From positions 1-41,518 of IMG/VR virus record IMGVR_UViG_3300044825_002344: DNA of 41,518 nt; one strand, 5' to 3'. Source of the DNA: a virus. The notes beneath the pieces were generated by a model. It had not been told where the DNA came from. It saw nothing but the letters and a program-made list of their open reading frames with translations, and did no database searches. A program made the position numbers and the translations under genes. Shown in pieces: positions 16,228 through 28,458 of the stretch. Positions within the stretch are counted from its first letter, which is position 1. Each line of letters begins with the position of its first letter.

Positions 16228-16632
16228 ATGACAAGCCGTCGCAATAAAATGATCTCGCAGCTCATGAAAGCTAACCCCAGCGAGACCGAGCAGCAGATGA
16301 TTAAGCTGACAATTGAGCGTATTTGCGCTGATATGAGCGAATACTATCGCGGCTTTTACAGCATCGAAGGCCCTGGAGCTATTATTTACGTGCCTAATGC
16401 TGACGAAAAAGACAGCATGTTCTATTTGCCTGTTGATGCATTAATGAATGCGCTTAACGATTTCAACAGTCGCGATATGGAAGGCCCTGCAGAAGTGATG
16501 AAAAAAGCCATCGCCAGAGCCGAATCCTTAGACTCAGAAAAAGAATCCCTTTTCATCATTCAAGATGCAGACCAAATGTCGTTAATTCACTACAAACACG
16601 ACAATCAAGAACATAACTTCATGCGGATGTGA
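16228..16632 (+). CDS. Hypothetical protein, 134 aa
   Basis: A good ribosome-binding site (GGAG, about 8 nt upstream of the ATG) supports this start. The product has a basic helical N-terminus (RRNKMISQLMKANPSETEQQ), a beta region (GPGAIIYVPNADEKDSMFYL) and a helical C-terminal half. It overlaps the next gene's GTG by GTGA, so translation is coupled to the Dam-like protein. The pairing suggests a joint role; nothing recognisable in its own sequence. Confidence 0.55.
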   Translation: MTSRRNKMISQLMKANPSETEQQMIKLTIERICADMSEYYRGFYSIEGPGAIIYVPNADEKDSMFYLPVDALMNALNDFNSRDMEGPAEVMKKAIARAESLDSEKESLFIIQDADQMSLIHYKHDNQEHNFMRM

Positions 16633-17258
16633 GCGACAAACCTGCACTCAGATGGGCTGACTACCAGCGATTCCTGGGGAAGATTACCCATATCACCAGG
16701 GATTGGTTAACGCCTGTTGACTATCTACCTTACATCGATGCTCTGCTCGGTGACATTGATCTTGATCCTTGCTCTACGCACCACGCAAATGCCCAATTTT
16801 TAAGAGCAAAGCGTATTTACACGCTTGATGATGACGGGTTGAACATGCAAGAACCCTGGAAAGGGAAGGTTTATTTGTTTCCTCCTACCTACGGGCGTTG
16901 TTCATTTAATAAACAACGCGGTACATGGCGCTGGAGTATGAGGGCTGGTGCAGCAGCAAAAGCTCCGTCCGTTGTATGGTTTCAACGACTCCTCAGAGAG
17001 TGGAAGTTGCGTAACGTGTCTGAAGCTTTGTTTTATACCATATATCCTGAAATGATGAGAATTTGCCCTGAGATGTGGGAGTATCCAGTTTGTATTCCGA
17101 CTGACCGAGGCAATTTAATTCAGGGAGAAAAATTATTTACTCTCCAAGCTCCGATGTATTGGGGGTACTTTATCTACTTGCCCCCGCTTGAATTAGGCTT
17201 CAACCAAGTTGAGCGATTTAAAGATATTTTCTCTCACATCGGTAAAGTTATTTGCTAG
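16629..17258 (+). CDS. Dam-like N6-adenine methyltransferase homologue, probably inactive
   Basis: A GTG-start 209-aa protein of the phage Dam family (PF05869 type). It has WLTPVDYLPYIDALLG, GDIDLDPCSTHHANAQ, IYTLDDDGL and PWKGKVYL, followed by the place where the catalytic NPPY loop should be. Here that loop reads F-P-P-T-Y-G (residues 84-89): the Asn is Phe and a Thr is inserted. The substrate-binding loop DLDP is retained. The middle (TWRWSMRAGAAAKAPSVVWFQRL) and end (YWGYFIYLPP) fit the family's length. The change to the (D/N)PP(Y/F) motif argues against methylation and for a DNA-binding or decoy role. The gene is coupled to its upstream neighbour. Confidence 0.75.
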   Translation: MSDKPALRWADYQRFLGKITHITRDWLTPVDYLPYIDALLGDIDLDPCSTHHANAQFLRAKRIYTLDDDGLNMQEPWKGKVYLFPPTYGRCSFNKQRGTWRWSMRAGAAAKAPSVVWFQRLLREWKLRNVSEALFYTIYPEMMRICPEMWEYPVCIPTDRGNLIQGEKLFTLQAPMYWGYFIYLPPLELGFNQVERFKDIFSHIGKVIC

Positions 17259-17791: not shown

Positions 17792-17994
17792 TGGATTACG
17801 AAGAGTTTTTACAGCATTACGCTCCCGAACTTCAGTTAATTGATGCACTCGATAGGATCAGTCGTTACTGCCCTGACGCGGCGGCGACGATAGACTGCTG
17901 GGTTTCTCAGACCAATAACGAAAAAACCGACGCAGAGATTCCCCAGACGGATACCACTCAACCATCTTTCGCTCCAGATATTCAATCGCCTTGA
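17791..17994 (+). CDS. Small hypothetical protein, 67 aa
   Basis: The ATG overlaps the previous stop (TAATG), which argues for translation. The product begins with a short helix pair (YEEFLQHYAPELQLIDALDRI), then becomes polar and Thr/Pro-rich. Its last 137 bp lie antisense to the 3' end of the lysozyme-like gene at 17858-18598, so only its first third is free of overlap. It may be real because of the coupling. No function visible. Confidence 0.4.
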   Translation: MDYEEFLQHYAPELQLIDALDRISRYCPDAAATIDCWVSQTNNEKTDAEIPQTDTTQPSFAPDIQSP

Positions 17995-18598
17995 TTTGTG
18001 TAGGTGATCCGTTGTAAGTATCTGCAAGATTTAATAAGCAAATCTTTGTCGCACATTTATGTTGAACTTGTGTCGGAACTTCTTTATCAGGAGCAAGGTA
18101 TAAATCCAATTCAACACGACGGCGTTCAATCATCTTCTCTCCTGCCGAACGCCAAATAGTGTTGATATAAGGACTCCACTCACGAATAATATCTTTCTTT
18201 GGGGCTAAGGAATTAATTAGATCGAGTAATTTACATTCTTTAAAAGAAGAAAAGCTTAGGCTATGAGCAAAGCTAAGAATTGCAGCTTTTTTGTTGTCGT
18301 TTAACGGCACAAAAATGTACTGAGCAACTAAATCCGAGAACTCTTTTAAGTCCTCAACAAGTTGCGTTTCAATCTGCTTTCTCGTAGCTTTCTCGTGCCA
18401 GCTAACCCACCGCTTGCCTAGCTTTTTACTCCCATAACCAATTCTCCAAATGTCTTCGCCATAGTCTTTATATGAAGCAAAACGCCCCATACCAACATCA
18501 GTACGGGGCGCTGTATAGCGCCGAATCAATTCGATTCCGCGCTCAGTTAAAAAAGGGTGATTTTGAAGCTCGTCTTCCTGTTTTTTCTTACGGGACAT
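17858..18598 (-). CDS. Degenerate lysozyme-like (GH24-related) protein
   Basis: Start chosen at the ATG at 18598 (MSRKKKQEDEL); a frame extension would overlap the upstream gene further. Residues about 15-165 align with T4-type lysozyme: ERGIELIRRY, then YKDYGEDIWRIGYGS, then FVPLNDNKKAAILSFAHSLS and WSPYINTIWRSAGEKMIERRRVE. The position of the catalytic Glu (usual EG-L after the first helix) is not acidic and carries an insertion. The Thr of the E-D-T set is Arg (WRIGYG), so muramidase activity may be lost. About 80 extra C-terminal residues follow. It may be a virion or baseplate lysozyme-like domain. It sits in an operon with nblA. Confidence 0.65.
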   Translation of the reverse strand: MSRKKKQEDELQNHPFLTERGIELIRRYTAPRTDVGMGRFASYKDYGEDIWRIGYGSKKLGKRWVSWHEKATRKQIETQLVEDLKEFSDLVAQYIFVPLNDNKKAAILSFAHSLSFSSFKECKLLDLINSLAPKKDIIREWSPYINTIWRSAGEKMIERRRVELDLYLAPDKEVPTQVQHKCATKICLLNLADTYNGSPTQIKAIEYLERKMVEWYPSGESLRRFFRYWSEKPSSLSSPPRQGSND

Positions 18599-18974
18599 CA
18601 ACGCTGCCGTTGTAGGCAACCTCACTGTAACCGTCCAAGTTCAGTAATACAACATAATTTTTGCTGGCGTCGGTCACGGTAACAGCTACTACACCCTTAC
18701 CCTTGCCGTCCTTGACAATATTGGCAAATTTAGTGTAGCCAGTAGGAGAAGAGCCGCCTGTATAAGCATCTTCTTGGAAAATCTCCATCGTAGTGATGCC
18801 GACCGAACGATCGAGCTTAACGATGATGTCACCAGTTGAGCTTGGGTTGACGCGGAAACCGCGAATGTCCAGACCACCCGTGGAACCGGCAGAAGTGTTA
18901 CCCAGATAGGTGACTTCGGAACCAGCGTTAACAGTGAATGTGTCGAGAGTACCTTGAATGGTGCGGATGGCCAT
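18588..18974 (-). CDS. Small virion-type beta protein, 128 aa
   Basis: All-beta composition rich in Gly, Thr and Val (FTVNAGSEVTYLGNTSAGST, GDIIVKLDRSVGITTMEIF, AVTVTDASKNYVVLLNLDG). This is like phage head decoration or tail-tube small proteins. It overlaps the lysozyme-like gene by 11 bp and lies 5 bp below the nblA-like gene, so all three are likely co-transcribed. No exact family recognised. Confidence 0.6.
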   Translation of the reverse strand: MAIRTIQGTLDTFTVNAGSEVTYLGNTSAGSTGGLDIRGFRVNPSSTGDIIVKLDRSVGITTMEIFQEDAYTGGSSPTGYTKFANIVKDGKGKGVVAVTVTDASKNYVVLLNLDGYSEVAYNGSVDVP

Positions 18975-18979
18975 GGTGA

Positions 18980-19195
18980 TTACGAAATTTGCCCGATCGT
19001 GGCGAGATTAAAGTTGATATCGGCATCAATGCCGTGATCTTTCAGGATCCCTAAGAACATTTGACGATCCAGGGCTTTTTGATGGAGTAACTCGATGAAA
19101 GCTTCTTCCAGCTCGTCTCGGTCCATGTTCTGGATCGCTAGGGCGGCGGCGTGGATTGAGAACTCCACATCCATTGGTAAGTTCAACGCTTCCAT
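18980..19195 (-). CDS. nblA: NblA-like phycobilisome degradation adaptor
   Basis: This 71-aa protein has the size and helix-loop-helix pattern of NblA. EFSIHAAALAIQNM corresponds to the family's EFS(L/I)...Q(V/I)Q.M helix, then a helix (ELEEAFIELLHQKALDRQ) and a tail with ILKDHGID. L51 and K52 match the conserved Leu/Lys implicated in phycobiliprotein binding in host NblA. NblA docks the Clp protease onto phycobilisomes so that the pigment-protein antenna is degraded. Phage-borne nblA is known in freshwater and marine cyanophages, and its presence predicts a phycobilisome-containing host. It is co-oriented with downstream virion genes. Confidence 0.8.
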   Translation of the reverse strand: MEALNLPMDVEFSIHAAALAIQNMDRDELEEAFIELLHQKALDRQMFLGILKDHGIDADINFNLATIGQIS

Positions 19196-19241
19196 CGTTT
19201 ACCTAAACCTTGGATCTATCCTAACAGCGCTGAACTGATCG

Positions 19242-19409
19242 TCAATTAACTGAATAACCAGGATCGCGCAACGGTCGATTGCGCTGATCAACTGTAAAAT
19301 CTGGCAGGTCAGGAACACCGTCAAAGATGCCTGGAATTAAAGCGGGCAGGCGCTCCTTTATGTAGGATTGCAAGTGGCCGTTTACCGTGGATTTTTCCGT
19401 TAAGTTCAC
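19242..19409 (-). CDS. Small ORF (55 aa, GTG start), possible partner of a membrane peptide
   Basis: A GTG immediately follows a TAA, with AGG about 5 nt before it. The product reads as a coherent soluble peptide: LTEKSTVNGHLQSYIKERLP, then IPGIFDGVPDLPDF, then QRNRPLRDPGYSVN. It overlaps in another frame the 3' half of the ORF at 19321-19491. It is upstream of nblA, 46 bp away. The Pro/Asp-rich C-terminus is typical of small phage proteins. Coding status is inferred from composition and packing only. Confidence 0.5.
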   Translation of the reverse strand: MNLTEKSTVNGHLQSYIKERLPALIPGIFDGVPDLPDFTVDQRNRPLRDPGYSVN

Positions 19410-19542: not shown

Positions 19543-20337
19543 ATGCCAGAAAATCACCTGCTTTCTTCATTCATGCGTGGCGCAGTAGGTGGCGTCAGTA
19601 AGGCGCAGCTAATCCGAACATTCAAAGAACAGCATGGATGGACAGATGCGGATATTTCACAGGCAATTCAACTTTGTAGTTTTAAACAGAAACCTAAACA
19701 AGTAGATTACGCAAGTTTCTATAATCTTCCTGTCACCAAAAAAGGCAAACGCATCTTTTACCCGTTTACTCAGATTTACACAATTGACAATTTCTTGACG
19801 GCACGAGAATGCAATGATCTAATCAAAATTATCGATGGAAATTTACGACCATCTACGGTGTCAGACCCAAAAGATTCTTGCACAGTGTCGGATTATCGCA
19901 CCAGCAAAACGGCAGATTTGCACTACTTTGAAGATCCTTTTTACCTAGAAATAGATAAAAAGCTGACTGATGCACTGGAAATTAGTCCTTTCTTGGGAGA
20001 GACAATGCAGGCGCAGCGGTACGAACCAGGACAGTATTATAAAGAGCACTGGGATTTCTTTTCTCCTACCACAAAAGAATATAAAGTTTACTGCGATTGG
20101 ATGGGTCAACGTACCTGGACCACCATGATCTATCTAAATGATGTAAAAGAAGGAGGTGAAACTTACTTTAAATATCTAAAACTACGTCTAAAGCCGAAGC
20201 AAGGCACACTCGTTGCTTGGAACAATCTTTATAAAAACGGCCTACCTAATCCTAAGACTATGCACGAAGCTTGTTCACCAATTAGTGGAAATAAGTATGT
20301 AATTACCAAGTGGTGGAGAAGTTGGCCGCTGATTTAA
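19543..20337 (+). CDS. 2-oxoglutarate/Fe(II)-dependent oxygenase (prolyl 4-hydroxylase-like)
   Basis: A 264-aa protein with the prolyl 4-hydroxylase double-stranded beta helix. The Fe-binding triad is H169-x-D171 (EHWDFF) and H241 (TMHEACSP). K251, within KYVITKWWR, is positioned to hold 2-oxoglutarate. QRYEPGQYY and TMIYLNDVKEGGETYF are typical family strands. The N-terminal about 75 residues form a helical extension (SKAQLIRTFKEQHGW). It is the only plus-strand gene in this part, with minus-strand genes on both sides and a 4-bp tail overlap with the next. It probably hydroxylates a protein or a phage/host molecule; the target is unknown. Confidence 0.88.
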   Translation: MPENHLLSSFMRGAVGGVSKAQLIRTFKEQHGWTDADISQAIQLCSFKQKPKQVDYASFYNLPVTKKGKRIFYPFTQIYTIDNFLTARECNDLIKIIDGNLRPSTVSDPKDSCTVSDYRTSKTADLHYFEDPFYLEIDKKLTDALEISPFLGETMQAQRYEPGQYYKEHWDFFSPTTKEYKVYCDWMGQRTWTTMIYLNDVKEGGETYFKYLKLRLKPKQGTLVAWNNLYKNGLPNPKTMHEACSPISGNKYVITKWWRSWPLI

Positions 20338-22423: not shown

Positions 22424-22452
22424 ATTATAGCTTTTTAAGGACTATTTGCCAA
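22424..22452 (-). promoter_or_regulatory. Sigma-70-like promoter
   Basis: On the minus strand, TTGGCA (-35) lies 17 bp upstream of TATAAT (-10). The -10 is 23 nt before the ATG at 22401. The -35 sits inside the 3' end of the dps-like gene. This is the best promoter match I found in the window and would drive the 69-aa gene and the collagen-like fibre. Confidence 0.55.
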
Positions 22453-22906
22453 GATTGCTTTTGATTAGCCATTGAAATTTCTTGTGCGTTCGCCCACGTT
22501 CAACAGCCAAATCCAATGTCAATTGGTCATCAATTGTCTCTGCCATCGATGCTAACTCTCGGAATCGGTCTGCTAACATATTGTGATTTGTTGCAAGCTG
22601 TCTAAGAATGACTTCTTGAGCAAAACAGTCTTCTAAGGGGACCCCTGGCATATTAGAGTAAGTCAAATCTTCTACGGTTTTGGGAGTGCCGATATCGAGA
22701 GATCGGATATGTTCAGCAACAACGTCAATGCCTTCTTGCATTTCTTCGTAAATATCTTGCGTTAACTTATGAATTGAATAGAATTTACCGCCCATTAAAC
22801 CCCAATGCACCAGCAAGGTCTGCTGATAAACGTACATTGAATCGCGCAAACACTGAACAAGCTGCGAATAACAAGTTGTTGTCTTTTCTGAAAGTTGCTT
22901 TGCCAT
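22442..22906 (-). CDS. dps: Dps-like ferritin / DNA protection during starvation protein
   Basis: The 154-aa product fits Dps: LLVHWGLMGGKFYSIHKLTQ, then EEMQEGIDVVAEHIRSL. The ferroxidase set H34, H46, D61, E65 matches the E. coli Dps ligands H51, H63, D78, E82 by spacing; the D67 position is Gln50. Length, helix pattern and a C-terminal Lys-rich tail fit a 12-mer shell that oxidises and stores iron and binds DNA. This is unusual cargo for a cyanophage and may protect phage DNA or scavenge iron under host oxidative stress. It is in a minus-strand run with a small basic conserved protein upstream. Confidence 0.82.
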   Translation of the reverse strand: MAKQLSEKTTTCYSQLVQCLRDSMYVYQQTLLVHWGLMGGKFYSIHKLTQDIYEEMQEGIDVVAEHIRSLDIGTPKTVEDLTYSNMPGVPLEDCFAQEVILRQLATNHNMLADRFRELASMAETIDDQLTLDLAVERGRTHKKFQWLIKSNLGK

Positions 22907-23821: not shown

Positions 23822-23895
23822 GCCCGAGTGACCCAGCGGAACGAGGTACTCGACTTAAAATCGAGCAGTCGGCGGTTCGAATCCGCCCTCGGGTA
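23822..23895 (+). tRNA. tRNA-Leu (UAA), short variable loop
   Basis: A 74-nt cloverleaf: acceptor GCCCGAG/CTCGGGT (one G-U), anticodon arm CTCGA-CTTAAAA-TCGAG with anticodon UAA, T arm GGCGG-TTCGAAT-CCGCC. The D stem has three pairs, as in class II tRNAs. The variable region is only 5 nt (CAGTC), whereas tRNA-Leu normally has a long variable arm. The 3' CCA is not encoded. It reads UUA codons. Confidence 0.85.
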
Positions 23896-23898
23896 TTA

Positions 23899-23970
23899 CG
23901 GGGTGTAGCGCAGCGGTAGCGCGTTTGGTTTGGGTCCAAAAAGTCACAGGTTCGATCCCTGTCACCCCGA
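23899..23970 (+). tRNA. tRNA-Pro (UGG)
   Basis: A 72-nt cloverleaf: acceptor CGGGGTG/CACCCCG (7 bp), D arm GCGC-AGCGGTA-GCGC, anticodon arm TTTGG-TTTGGGT-CCAAA with anticodon UGG, T arm ACAGG-TTCGATC-CCTGT. CCA is not encoded. It lies 3 nt after the tRNA-Leu and reads proline CCA and, by wobble, other CCN codons. Confidence 0.95.
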
Positions 23971-23972
23971 TT

Positions 23973-24043
23973 GGCCCTGTAATTTAATGGTAAAATAATC
24001 GCCTTGTAAGCGATCATTCTCGGTTCAAATCCGAGCGGGGCCT
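23973..24043 (+). tRNA. tRNA-Thr (UGU)
   Basis: A 71-nt cloverleaf: acceptor GGCCCTG/CGGGGCC (with a U-G pair), anticodon arm ATCGC-CTTGTAA-GCGAT with anticodon UGU, T arm CTCGG-TTCAAAT-CCGAG, discriminator U. CCA is not encoded. The last base meets the stop codon of the minus-strand ORF at 24043. It reads ACA and other ACN codons. Confidence 0.92.
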
Positions 24044-24279: not shown

Positions 24280-24511
24280 TGTTTACAGCTTCATCATCAG
24301 CGGGCTCATCAAGATTCTTTTTTAAAATATCAAGAATCTCCATGGCGCCTTGTACCTTTAAATAACCTTCTTTTGTGGTGATGAGGGCTGTTTCGGCTGC
24401 ACGGATATCATTTGCAAGCTTTGCAAGCTGTGCTTTCAACCCGTTTTCCAATTCTTCAATTTTTTCAAGCATGGTTTTAACGGCAGTGACAGAAGTATAC
24501 CTAAACTTCAC
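24269..24511 (-). CDS. Coiled-coil small protein, 80 aa
   Basis: Starts at a GTG overlapping the stop of the endolysin gene (GTGA), so it is coupled to it. The sequence is a coiled coil (MLEKIEELENGLKAQLAKLA, then NDIRAAETALITTKEGYLKV). Its position just after the endolysin suggests a lysis or virion accessory role, but no membrane segment is seen, which is against a holin. Confidence 0.6.
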   Translation of the reverse strand: MKFRYTSVTAVKTMLEKIEELENGLKAQLAKLANDIRAAETALITTKEGYLKVQGAMEILDILKKNLDEPADDEAVNIAL

Positions 24512-25758
24512 TTCCTGCGGAAGTCAATCCAACACCAGCCATTCGCACCGCCGCTGACAAAAAAACGCGGATTCATGTTTTTGAAGCTGTATTTAATGTT
24601 TTTACCAGCGACGGCACCTGTAGAGGCCCATCCGCCGTTGACAAGATCCAACTCGCCAAACGGATCCTGCACTAACCAATGCGTTTTGTCATAACCAGTA
24701 ATAACAACGAAGTGCCCGCCGCCAGTAGGGTGAGAAACAGTTCCATGATGAAGAATGCCGGCAACAACAGGGAGTCCCTTGTCAATTTGCTCTTTGACAT
24801 CTTGCTCATCCGCAGATAGCGTGAATTTAGCGTAAACGTCTAATTCTTCAAGGGCCTTGAAATGTGGCTCGCGGTGCGTCGTATCTCCGTATTTATTGAC
24901 GATTTTTAAATAGTCTAGGTCGTCGTTAATGCCAGGTACATCGAGATATCGCAGACACATGGCAATTGAACTGGTTTGACACTGGCGCCAGCCTTCTGGG
25001 CCATTGTCACGCTGGTAGAAGTAAGGAAAATTGCGGAGGTAACGCAGATCTCCCTGGATCGCATAAGGTTTAATACCAGTTTCGGTGAGCAGTCCGTCCC
25101 AGTGGGCGTCAAAAACCCACCACTTACCAAGGCCAAAACCAAGCTCAAGAAATGTGTGCTTATCCTTTCTGTCTAAAACCTTACATTCACGGATTGTCCG
25201 TCCCTGGTGAACCTTGGCTTTCTCATCGTTAGGTAGTTCAGCCGATGGGATTGGTTTTTTCTTAAGCCAAGTTTGCTGCTTGGAGGTAATGGTAATCATG
25301 CCAGTCTTAGGTGTCGGTGGATCTTGACAGAATAATTCAACTTCAGCCGAACGCCGACGATCTAACCCCGCTAAAACTTTGCCACCTGCTCCTTTATTCC
25401 AGCGTGGCAATTCCTCTTTTGCGACTGTATTTGGGTCTTCTTTGTTGTTTAAACGCTTTAATAACGTTGATTCCGCAAATGCACCTTCGCCGATGTTATA
25501 GACGAAGGATACTAAAGCGTCGAATTGAGTTTGGTTGAGAGGTGTTTTTGCATGACGAAGCACAGCTTGCTCAAATCGTTGCAGGTCTTTACGCAGAACA
25601 ACCTCAGCTTGCTGTTCAGTATATCGCTGCCCTGGCTTTACATCTGGACCAGTGTGGCCGTAGCCAATTGTTAAAACTCCAGCAGGGCAGATATAACTTG
25701 TCAATGACAGCCCCTCAAACGATTTAATTAAATCAACGCCAGCCTGCGATGTCTTCAT
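24508..25758 (-). CDS. Modular endolysin: GH24 muramidase plus C39-like cysteine peptidase
   Basis: A 416-aa enzyme with two cutting domains. Residues 1-145 are a GH24 lysozyme with the endolysin signature E-8aa-C-5aa-T: E15, C24, T30 in FEGLSLTSYICPAGVLTIGYGHT (E15 in FEG, T30 in LTIGYGH). Residues about 150-235 are a linker with SH3-like strands (KTGMITITSKQQTWLKK). Residues about 235-410 are a papain-like C39/NlpC-type peptidase: C260 (QCQTSSIAMCL), H349 (GGGHFVVITGYD), D365 (QDPFGE). It should hydrolyse both glycan and peptide bonds of peptidoglycan at lysis. Its neighbours downstream are coiled-coil and small genes. No signal peptide, so a holin is needed elsewhere. Confidence 0.9.
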   Translation of the reverse strand: MKTSQAGVDLIKSFEGLSLTSYICPAGVLTIGYGHTGPDVKPGQRYTEQQAEVVLRKDLQRFEQAVLRHAKTPLNQTQFDALVSFVYNIGEGAFAESTLLKRLNNKEDPNTVAKEELPRWNKGAGGKVLAGLDRRRSAEVELFCQDPPTPKTGMITITSKQQTWLKKKPIPSAELPNDEKAKVHQGRTIRECKVLDRKDKHTFLELGFGLGKWWVFDAHWDGLLTETGIKPYAIQGDLRYLRNFPYFYQRDNGPEGWRQCQTSSIAMCLRYLDVPGINDDLDYLKIVNKYGDTTHREPHFKALEELDVYAKFTLSADEQDVKEQIDKGLPVVAGILHHGTVSHPTGGGHFVVITGYDKTHWLVQDPFGELDLVNGGWASTGAVAGKNIKYSFKNMNPRFFVSGGANGWCWIDFRRK

Positions 25759-27570: not shown

Positions 27571-28458
27571 TTAAGTCCAAGAAACGCTTCCAGTTCCAGC
27601 AGTGATTTGAGATACGCTGTCACCCCCGATGGACGATGTGCTGATTGTAAGCCCACCCCCAGGATTTGAAATTATATACGCATTTGGATACCTTAAAACA
27701 ACAAAACCCGAACCACCAGTACCTGTATTAACTGGAGCAGGGCCCACCAAAGGACTTGAATAACCGCCGCCTCCGCCCCCAGTATTAACCTGGCCGTTTG
27801 TGGCACTGACACCAGGGCCGCTTGGTGCATTGTAGTATGAGCCATCTCCACCTCCCCCTGTTCCGCCGAAACCACGCATAGGAGCACCAACGCCAGCAGC
27901 ACCACCGCCGCCACCACCCGCTCTAGTGACAGAGCTACCAGTAATCGAAGATGAAATACCTGGGCCACCGTTACCAGCCGCTCCTCCTGTTGGACTGGCG
28001 GTGCCGGGACTGCCTGACCCTCCAGCACCACCTCCGCCACCGCCACCTCTTGGAAGCACAGGTGCACCGGCTCCGCCTGGGAAACCTTGTCCTGGAATAC
28101 CTGCTCCGCCGGAAGTTCCAGGCCCGCTACCACCGCCGCCCGAGCCTCCATCTTGAAACGGTGGACTCGATGAATCTCCACCGCCGGTAGCCACTACTGG
28201 ACCAAAAACAGACGGAGACCCACTTCCACTAGTAGGGGTAAAGCCCGTAGCCCCGCCTCCTCCTCCTACCGTTACAGTGTAATTTGTGTTTGTAGATATA
28301 AGAACAGTACTTTCTAAATATCCTCCCGCTCCTCCACCGCCTGTTCCATTGTTTGCAGAACCACCAAATCCACTTCCTCCACCAGCAATAACAAGATACT
28401 GCGTAGTAAACGAAGGACTCTTTTCGCCCCCTCCCAACAGTAATTGAATGAGTGACAT
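27571..28458 (-). CDS. Glycine-rich tail fibre / adhesin
   Basis: A 295-aa protein of about 40% glycine by eye. It has TQYLVIAGGGSGFGGS near the start, then many GGGG runs and loops such as GGPGISSSITGSSVTRAGG. This is the polyglycine-II sandwich design of tail adhesins, as in T4-like phage S16 gp38. Its start overlaps the stop of the upstream fibre gene by one base. It is probably a receptor-binding tip for the fibre at 28458-29498. Confidence 0.75.
   Translation of the reverse strand: MSLIQLLLGGGEKSPSFTTQYLVIAGGGSGFGGSANNGTGGGGAGGYLESTVLISTNTNYTVTVGGGGGATGFTPTSGSGSPSVFGPVVATGGGDSSSPPFQDGGSGGGGSGPGTSGGAGIPGQGFPGGAGAPVLPRGGGGGGGAGGSGSPGTASPTGGAAGNGGPGISSSITGSSVTRAGGGGGGAAGVGAPMRGFGGTGGGGDGSYYNAPSGPGVSATNGQVNTGGGGGGYSSPLVGPAPVNTGTGGSGFVVLRYPNAYIISNPGGGLTISTSSIGGDSVSQITAGTGSVSWT

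Follow-up and report, generated by a model that had tools for sequence, protein, structure and literature searches.

An open reading frame on the minus strand of IMG/VR virus record IMGVR_UViG_3300044825_002344, which was analysed over its full 41 518 nucleotides (the window), begins with ATG at 19195 and ends with a stop codon at 18982–18980. The protein encoded by 19195 to 18980 is MEALNLPMDVEFSIHAAALAIQNMDRDELEEAFIELLHQKALDRQMFLGILKDHGIDADINFNLATIGQIS. A 71-residue NblA-like protein had been placed at these positions by an original prediction that named no strand; the protein is present and its strand is minus. The gene and its relatives are called A-type below and the features around it are listed in Table 1.

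Table 1. Features of the nblA-like locus (positions in the window).
Feature	Positions	Strand	Remarks
Degenerate phage-lysozyme-like protein	17858..18625	−	Overlaps the end of the 128-aa gene
128-aa β-sandwich protein (predicted fold)	18588..18974	−	Follows the nblA-like gene at a distance of 5 bp
nblA-like gene (A-type), 71 aa	18980..19195	−	NblA helix-loop-helix core (predicted) and conserved C-terminal tail
Putative extended −10 promoter, TTGACG-N16-TAGGAT	19218..19245	−	Consensus match directly upstream of the cluster
Small conserved ORF, 55 aa, GTG start	19242..19409	−	Upstream of the nblA-like gene

A-type relatives are encoded in at least 113 IMG/VR viral contigs, the best 80 of which are 69–97% identical to the 71-residue protein with full or nearly full coverage; an alignment-based scan raised the count of relatives to 329 stretches. 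Differences between A-type genes fall mostly at third codon positions (0.149, 0.045 and 0.481 for the first, second and third positions, respectively) and the median dN/dS is 0.05–0.11. Because third-position differences dominate and dN/dS is low, positions 18980–19195 are a real gene under strong purifying selection, which is not relaxed in the low-GC relatives (dN/dS 0.08). The EFSI, Q-N-M and L-K motifs on which the prediction had been based were all found in the window protein. Across this protein and 61 distinct relatives E11, F12, I14 and K52 are invariant, Q22 is kept in 61 of the 62 sequences, and either I or V occupies position 50. The same sequences share a C-terminal tail of the pattern HGIDA...T.GQ.S, with no variation in HGIDA, T66 or Q69 and almost none in G68 or S71. 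This tail has no counterpart in canonical NblA; being conserved although no fold is predicted for it, it hints at a further binding surface.

Gene cluster and late-type position

The three-gene arrangement was followed through 189 relative loci, some of which are incomplete and some of which come from contigs counted twice (by two scans with different flanks). The 128-residue gene was found on the same strand at a fixed spacing in 186 of these loci and the lysozyme-like gene in 178, with order and strand kept; the spacings across relatives are 4–6 bp followed by an overlap. With median identities of 80% (NblA-like), 69% (128-residue) and 59% (lysozyme-like), the A-type product is the most conserved of the three proteins.

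The 128-residue protein was predicted by AlphaFold2 to be an all-β protein forming a β-sandwich (pLDDT 86). Family searches gave no firm family for it, and a fold-based name was dropped as the best Z score (9) was to unrelated β-sandwiches. It is possibly a virion or decoration protein, and its earlier description as a virion gene is plausible from the predicted fold, short of proof. The degenerate lysozyme neighbour that had been proposed was borne out: the protein matches Pfam Phage_lysozyme (E = 1.5e-12), and its usual FEG glutamate motif is missing, this catalytic region being replaced by RRYTAPR and not restored in relatives. A protein conserved in this way without FEG looks like an exaptation for a function other than catalysis. 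At 24508–25758 lies the gene for another, complete lysozyme-domain protein, the C-terminal half of which resembles a cysteine peptidase by eye.

Upstream of the cluster the aligned high-GC sequences have a conserved block in common, TTG...AGCGCTG.TAGGATA..T..AAGGT; promoter-consensus matches overall are no more numerous than in shuffles. Homologs of the 55-residue ORF were found by tblastn in 34 relative loci, and those listed sit directly upstream of the nblA-like gene; the ORF is possibly the first gene of the transcription unit. Divergent to the cluster lies a 2OG-Fe(II)-oxygenase gene (19543–20337), which is there in 132 relative loci.

In an 87 kb relative (G010) the A-type gene shares its strand and block with terminase, portal, capsid and tail genes. 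Expression of the A-type gene late in infection, with its structural and lysis-related neighbours, is therefore likely, and the late-type position originally proposed holds, resting on the structural-gene block of this relative. The minus-strand genes of the window also include a Ferritin/Dps-like protein (22442–22906; Pfam Ferritin, E = 6e-12), which S-EIV1 has as well, and on the plus strand three tandem tRNAs (Leu-taa, Pro-tgg and Thr-tgt; 23822–24043) lie inside the minus-strand late block.

Relationship to NblA

The window protein is not above the cut-off of either curated NblA family (Pfam PF04485, 14.3 bits, cut-off 25, E = 0.057; NCBIfam NF045916, 21.2 bits, cut-off 100, E = 2.5e-4). 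A verdict of 'no family' from Pfam, PHROGs and NCBIfam scans alone was rejected, such scans being too insensitive here. A custom HMM was built from nine accepted NblA proteins (five from cyanobacterial plasmids, two from the PDB and two from phages) and finds the window ORF with E = 3.1e-9 to 2.5e-8, the second-ranking ORF of the window reaching only E = 0.81; with a cyanobacteria-only HMM the value is 5.4e-9. The HMM search that had been suggested as a check thus came out positive with custom profiles and below cut-off with Pfam and NCBIfam. Profile–profile comparison with hhalign gave a probability of 95.8%. Among 177 635 PDB sequences the NblA entries 3cs5 and 1ojh rank as the top two, both in a single-sequence phmmer search and with the family profile.

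The alignment with NblA is ungapped across the ∼52 core residues. Identity to canonical NblA is 17–30%, in keeping with the 'diverged copy' of the original prediction. In the crystal-structure paper on Anabaena NblA, L51 and K53 of the C-terminal helix are reportedly linked to phycobiliprotein binding; the K53 equivalent is the invariant K52 (62 of 62 sequences) and the L51 equivalent is position 50. AlphaFold2 predicts helices at residues 8–22 and 26–53 (pLDDT 76) and a low-confidence tail, so that in length and predicted helices the protein fits the ∼60-residue helix-loop-helix monomer. Foldseek and VIA searches with the model, a two-helix query, returned no NblA chain. A tblastn search of isolate phages with the window protein and Anabaena NblA found no relatives and missed even Ma-LMM01; it is therefore insensitive for such short proteins, and its negatives were set aside. 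The profile evidence supports the A-type protein as a divergent NblA homolog; it is called NblA-like because the curated family cut-offs are not reached although divergent homology is supported.

The A-type protein resembles cyanobacterial NblA (PF04485; Anabaena 1ojh, S. elongatus 3cs5) in size, in its predicted helix-loop-helix core, in the conserved F at 12 and K at 52 and in the significant profile match; it differs in its low identity, in being phage-borne within a late-type cluster and in carrying the extra conserved tail. Homologs of nblA are known from freshwater and marine cyanophages, and expression of a freshwater phage nblA leads to phycobilin loss (PMC9602691). The NblA proteins of Ma-LMM01 and PaV-LD are likewise phage-encoded homologs, 17–20% identical to the A-type protein, whereas their genes stand beside nrdA and near nrdB (Ma-LMM01) or beside a thymidylate kinase gene (PaV-LD). 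Nothing was found in these two genomes with the A-type profile.

Phage lineage, further NblA-like types and hosts

Homologs in S-EIV1 were found for 24 window proteins at E ≤ 1e-5 (primase, 35% identity; exonuclease, 44%), and G010 shares 65–66% identity with S-EIV1 in TerL, 70% in a capsid-like protein and 54% in a portal-like protein. By these homologies the window belongs to an S-EIV1-type cyanophage lineage. A gene for S-adenosylmethionine decarboxylase (speD; 407–865) adjoins the exonuclease and primase genes, and a weak match to phage N6-adenine methyltransferases (16629–17258; TIGR01712, E = 0.018) is at a position conserved in S-EIV1. The A-type gene comes near to being a core gene in this lineage, because it is carried by all seven contigs of at least 55 kb that were found by terminase alone; it was absent from a terminase-found contig of 49 kb and from five under 30 kb, in which the locus was perhaps not reached. 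The S-EIV1 genome has no A-type gene and carries an NblA-like gene of another kind (E-type) instead. No nblA is listed under the S-EIV1 group in a survey covering environmental genomes (PMC5332604).

A second NblA-like gene was found in 16 of the 20 long S-EIV1-type contigs examined. It is of the known S-TIM5/S-SCSM1 type, because the profile that recovers it also recovers a gene of S-TIM5 and ORF237 of S-SCSM1, which has been named NblA (PMC9602691). Like the A-type protein, this type is a divergent cyanophage NblA homolog, and ORF237 adjoins virion and 2OG-oxygenase genes in a context resembling that of the A-type gene; the two types are nevertheless distinct, with an hhalign probability of 3.8% between them. 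The S-TIM5-type profile (A4) has no match in the window and does not recover the A-type gene. In G010 the S-TIM5-type gene adjoins replication genes. The Synechococcus phage isolate S-EIV1 (KJ410740) encodes AHV82171.1 of the S-TIM5 type (27768–27986) and AHV82245.1 of the E-type (73902–74222), both annotated as hypothetical. AHV82245.1, which matches a combined NblA profile with E = 3e-9, lies directly after a lysozyme gene in the same genome segment as the A-type gene; it is ∼23–26% identical to the window protein and differs in a longer acidic tail. In hhalign comparisons with NblA the E-type (67%) and the S-TIM5 type (81%) are both weaker than the A-type. All three coexist in an 88 kb phage contig, G002 (E-type, L230:6014-6313; S-TIM5 type, L231:19655-19900; A-type, L234:7601-7816).

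The hosts of A-type phages are cyanobacteria, as indicated by psbA and by the infection of Synechococcus by S-EIV1. A psbA gene was found in nine of the 42 records searched; in a tree of seven of these, six fall in the Prochlorococcus-phage group, which also contains Synechococcus phage S-TIM4, and the seventh (G012) groups with Synechococcus phages. GC content is below 40% in 123 of the 189 A-type loci, with a minimum of 31%. CpeT, a sign of a phycobilisome-bearing host, was sought in 32 contigs and not found, which is weak evidence. Prochlorococcus has neither phycobilisomes nor nblA (PMC7439483), and by GC content and psbA type some A-type carriers seem to infect such antenna-less hosts. 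If Prochlorococcus hosts are real, phycobilisome loss is not the sole function of the gene. A scan of genome contigs gave one match, QQUU01000116.1 (L084), from a 'Bacteroidetes' MAG with an A-type gene 86% identical; a Bacteroidetes host was set aside, the contig probably being a misbinned cyanophage.

Proposed function and alternatives

NblA links phycobilisomes to ClpC (PMC7966870). By analogy, the A-type product is best read as a late NblA-like Clp-adaptor host-takeover protein, directed at phycobilisomes where these are present and possibly at a broader target; a probability of roughly 55% is assigned to this reading. The protein would be made late, alongside the neighbouring structural and lysis-related gene products, would presumably form a small helix-loop-helix dimer and would hand host proteins over to the protease ClpC. 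Where the host has phycobilisomes these would be the target, and their breakdown would free amino acids and lower light harvesting during virion assembly. That infection would dismantle the antenna, and would do so through Clp, as originally proposed, is in both parts carried over from known NblA. NblA-like action is supported by the profile match, the ungapped core, the invariant K52, the two predicted helices, the cyanobacterial hosts and the phycobilin loss seen on expression of other phage NblA proteins (PMC9602691); the sub-cut-off curated scores, the low identity and the conserved extra tail count against it. The many Prochlorococcus-phage-like carriers and the unrelaxed selection at low GC argue against a purely phycobilisome-directed role, and an auxiliary metabolic gene would not normally be more conserved than its neighbours, as this one is.

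An NblA-derived Clp adaptor with a changed target is a less probable alternative, in which a conserved non-phycobilisome host protein, conceivably one of photosynthesis, stress or defence, would be delivered in hosts with and without phycobilisomes. Retention of the gene, under selection that is not relaxed, in contigs whose GC content falls as low as 31% and whose psbA resembles that of Prochlorococcus phages would fit, as would the private conserved tail and the failure to find CpeT; the host assignment from GC and psbA is indirect, however, since this psbA type also occurs in S-TIM4, a phage of Synechococcus, and the core retains the residues linked to phycobiliprotein binding. Slightly more doubtful is a scheme in which the two- or three-part NblA-like set (the A-type of the late cluster, the S-TIM5 type next to replication genes and in some phages an E-type) would act as staged or heterodimeric Clp adaptors, the A-type member being retargeted to a protein also found in phycobilisome-less Prochlorococcus. 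Pairing of two phage types in a heterodimer deserves consideration because the NblA1/NblA2 heterodimer of Synechocystis is reported as essential in the title of Baier (2014), cited in PMC7966870.

The nearly invariant cluster with its tight and overlapping spacings, the strand shared with structural genes, the highest conservation falling on the A-type gene and the E-type gene of S-EIV1, another NblA-like type, also directly following a lysozyme gene would all suit an accessory of virion morphogenesis or lysis, descended from NblA or merely like it, that partners the 128-residue and lysozyme-like proteins and has no role in proteolysis. This is unlikely, as the sequence signal is NblA-specific, with only NblA topping the PDB ranking, and the second NblA-like gene of S-EIV1 and most relatives sits away from structural genes. 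That a short helical protein should resemble NblA by chance is disfavoured as very improbable: the Pfam score is under its cut-off and some relatives match other Pfam families equally weakly, but none of 20 000 shuffles exceeded 12.4 bits, against 32.5 for the A-type protein, and detection by phmmer against the PDB, by the cyanobacteria-only HMM and by profile–profile comparison was independent. The resemblance to NblA originally claimed is far beyond chance (profile E = 3e-9).

Within the literature covered, the A-type as a distinct kind is new, and so are its conserved cluster and near-core status in S-EIV1-type phages, its occurrence alongside the S-TIM5 type and the NblA-like genes that stand unannotated in S-EIV1; earlier marine-phage nblA sets and listings may overlap with these. 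Phage nblA is usually regarded as an accessory gene for recycling the host antenna. Here, in contrast, an NblA-like protein is near-core in a widespread cyanophage lineage, usually alongside a second NblA-like gene, and S-EIV1, an isolated phage with two such genes, makes part of the proposal testable. Should the carriers indeed infect Prochlorococcus, they would be retaining an NblA-type adaptor in cells without its classical substrate, and NblA-like proteins may serve phages as a means of turning host Clp proteolysis on other targets.
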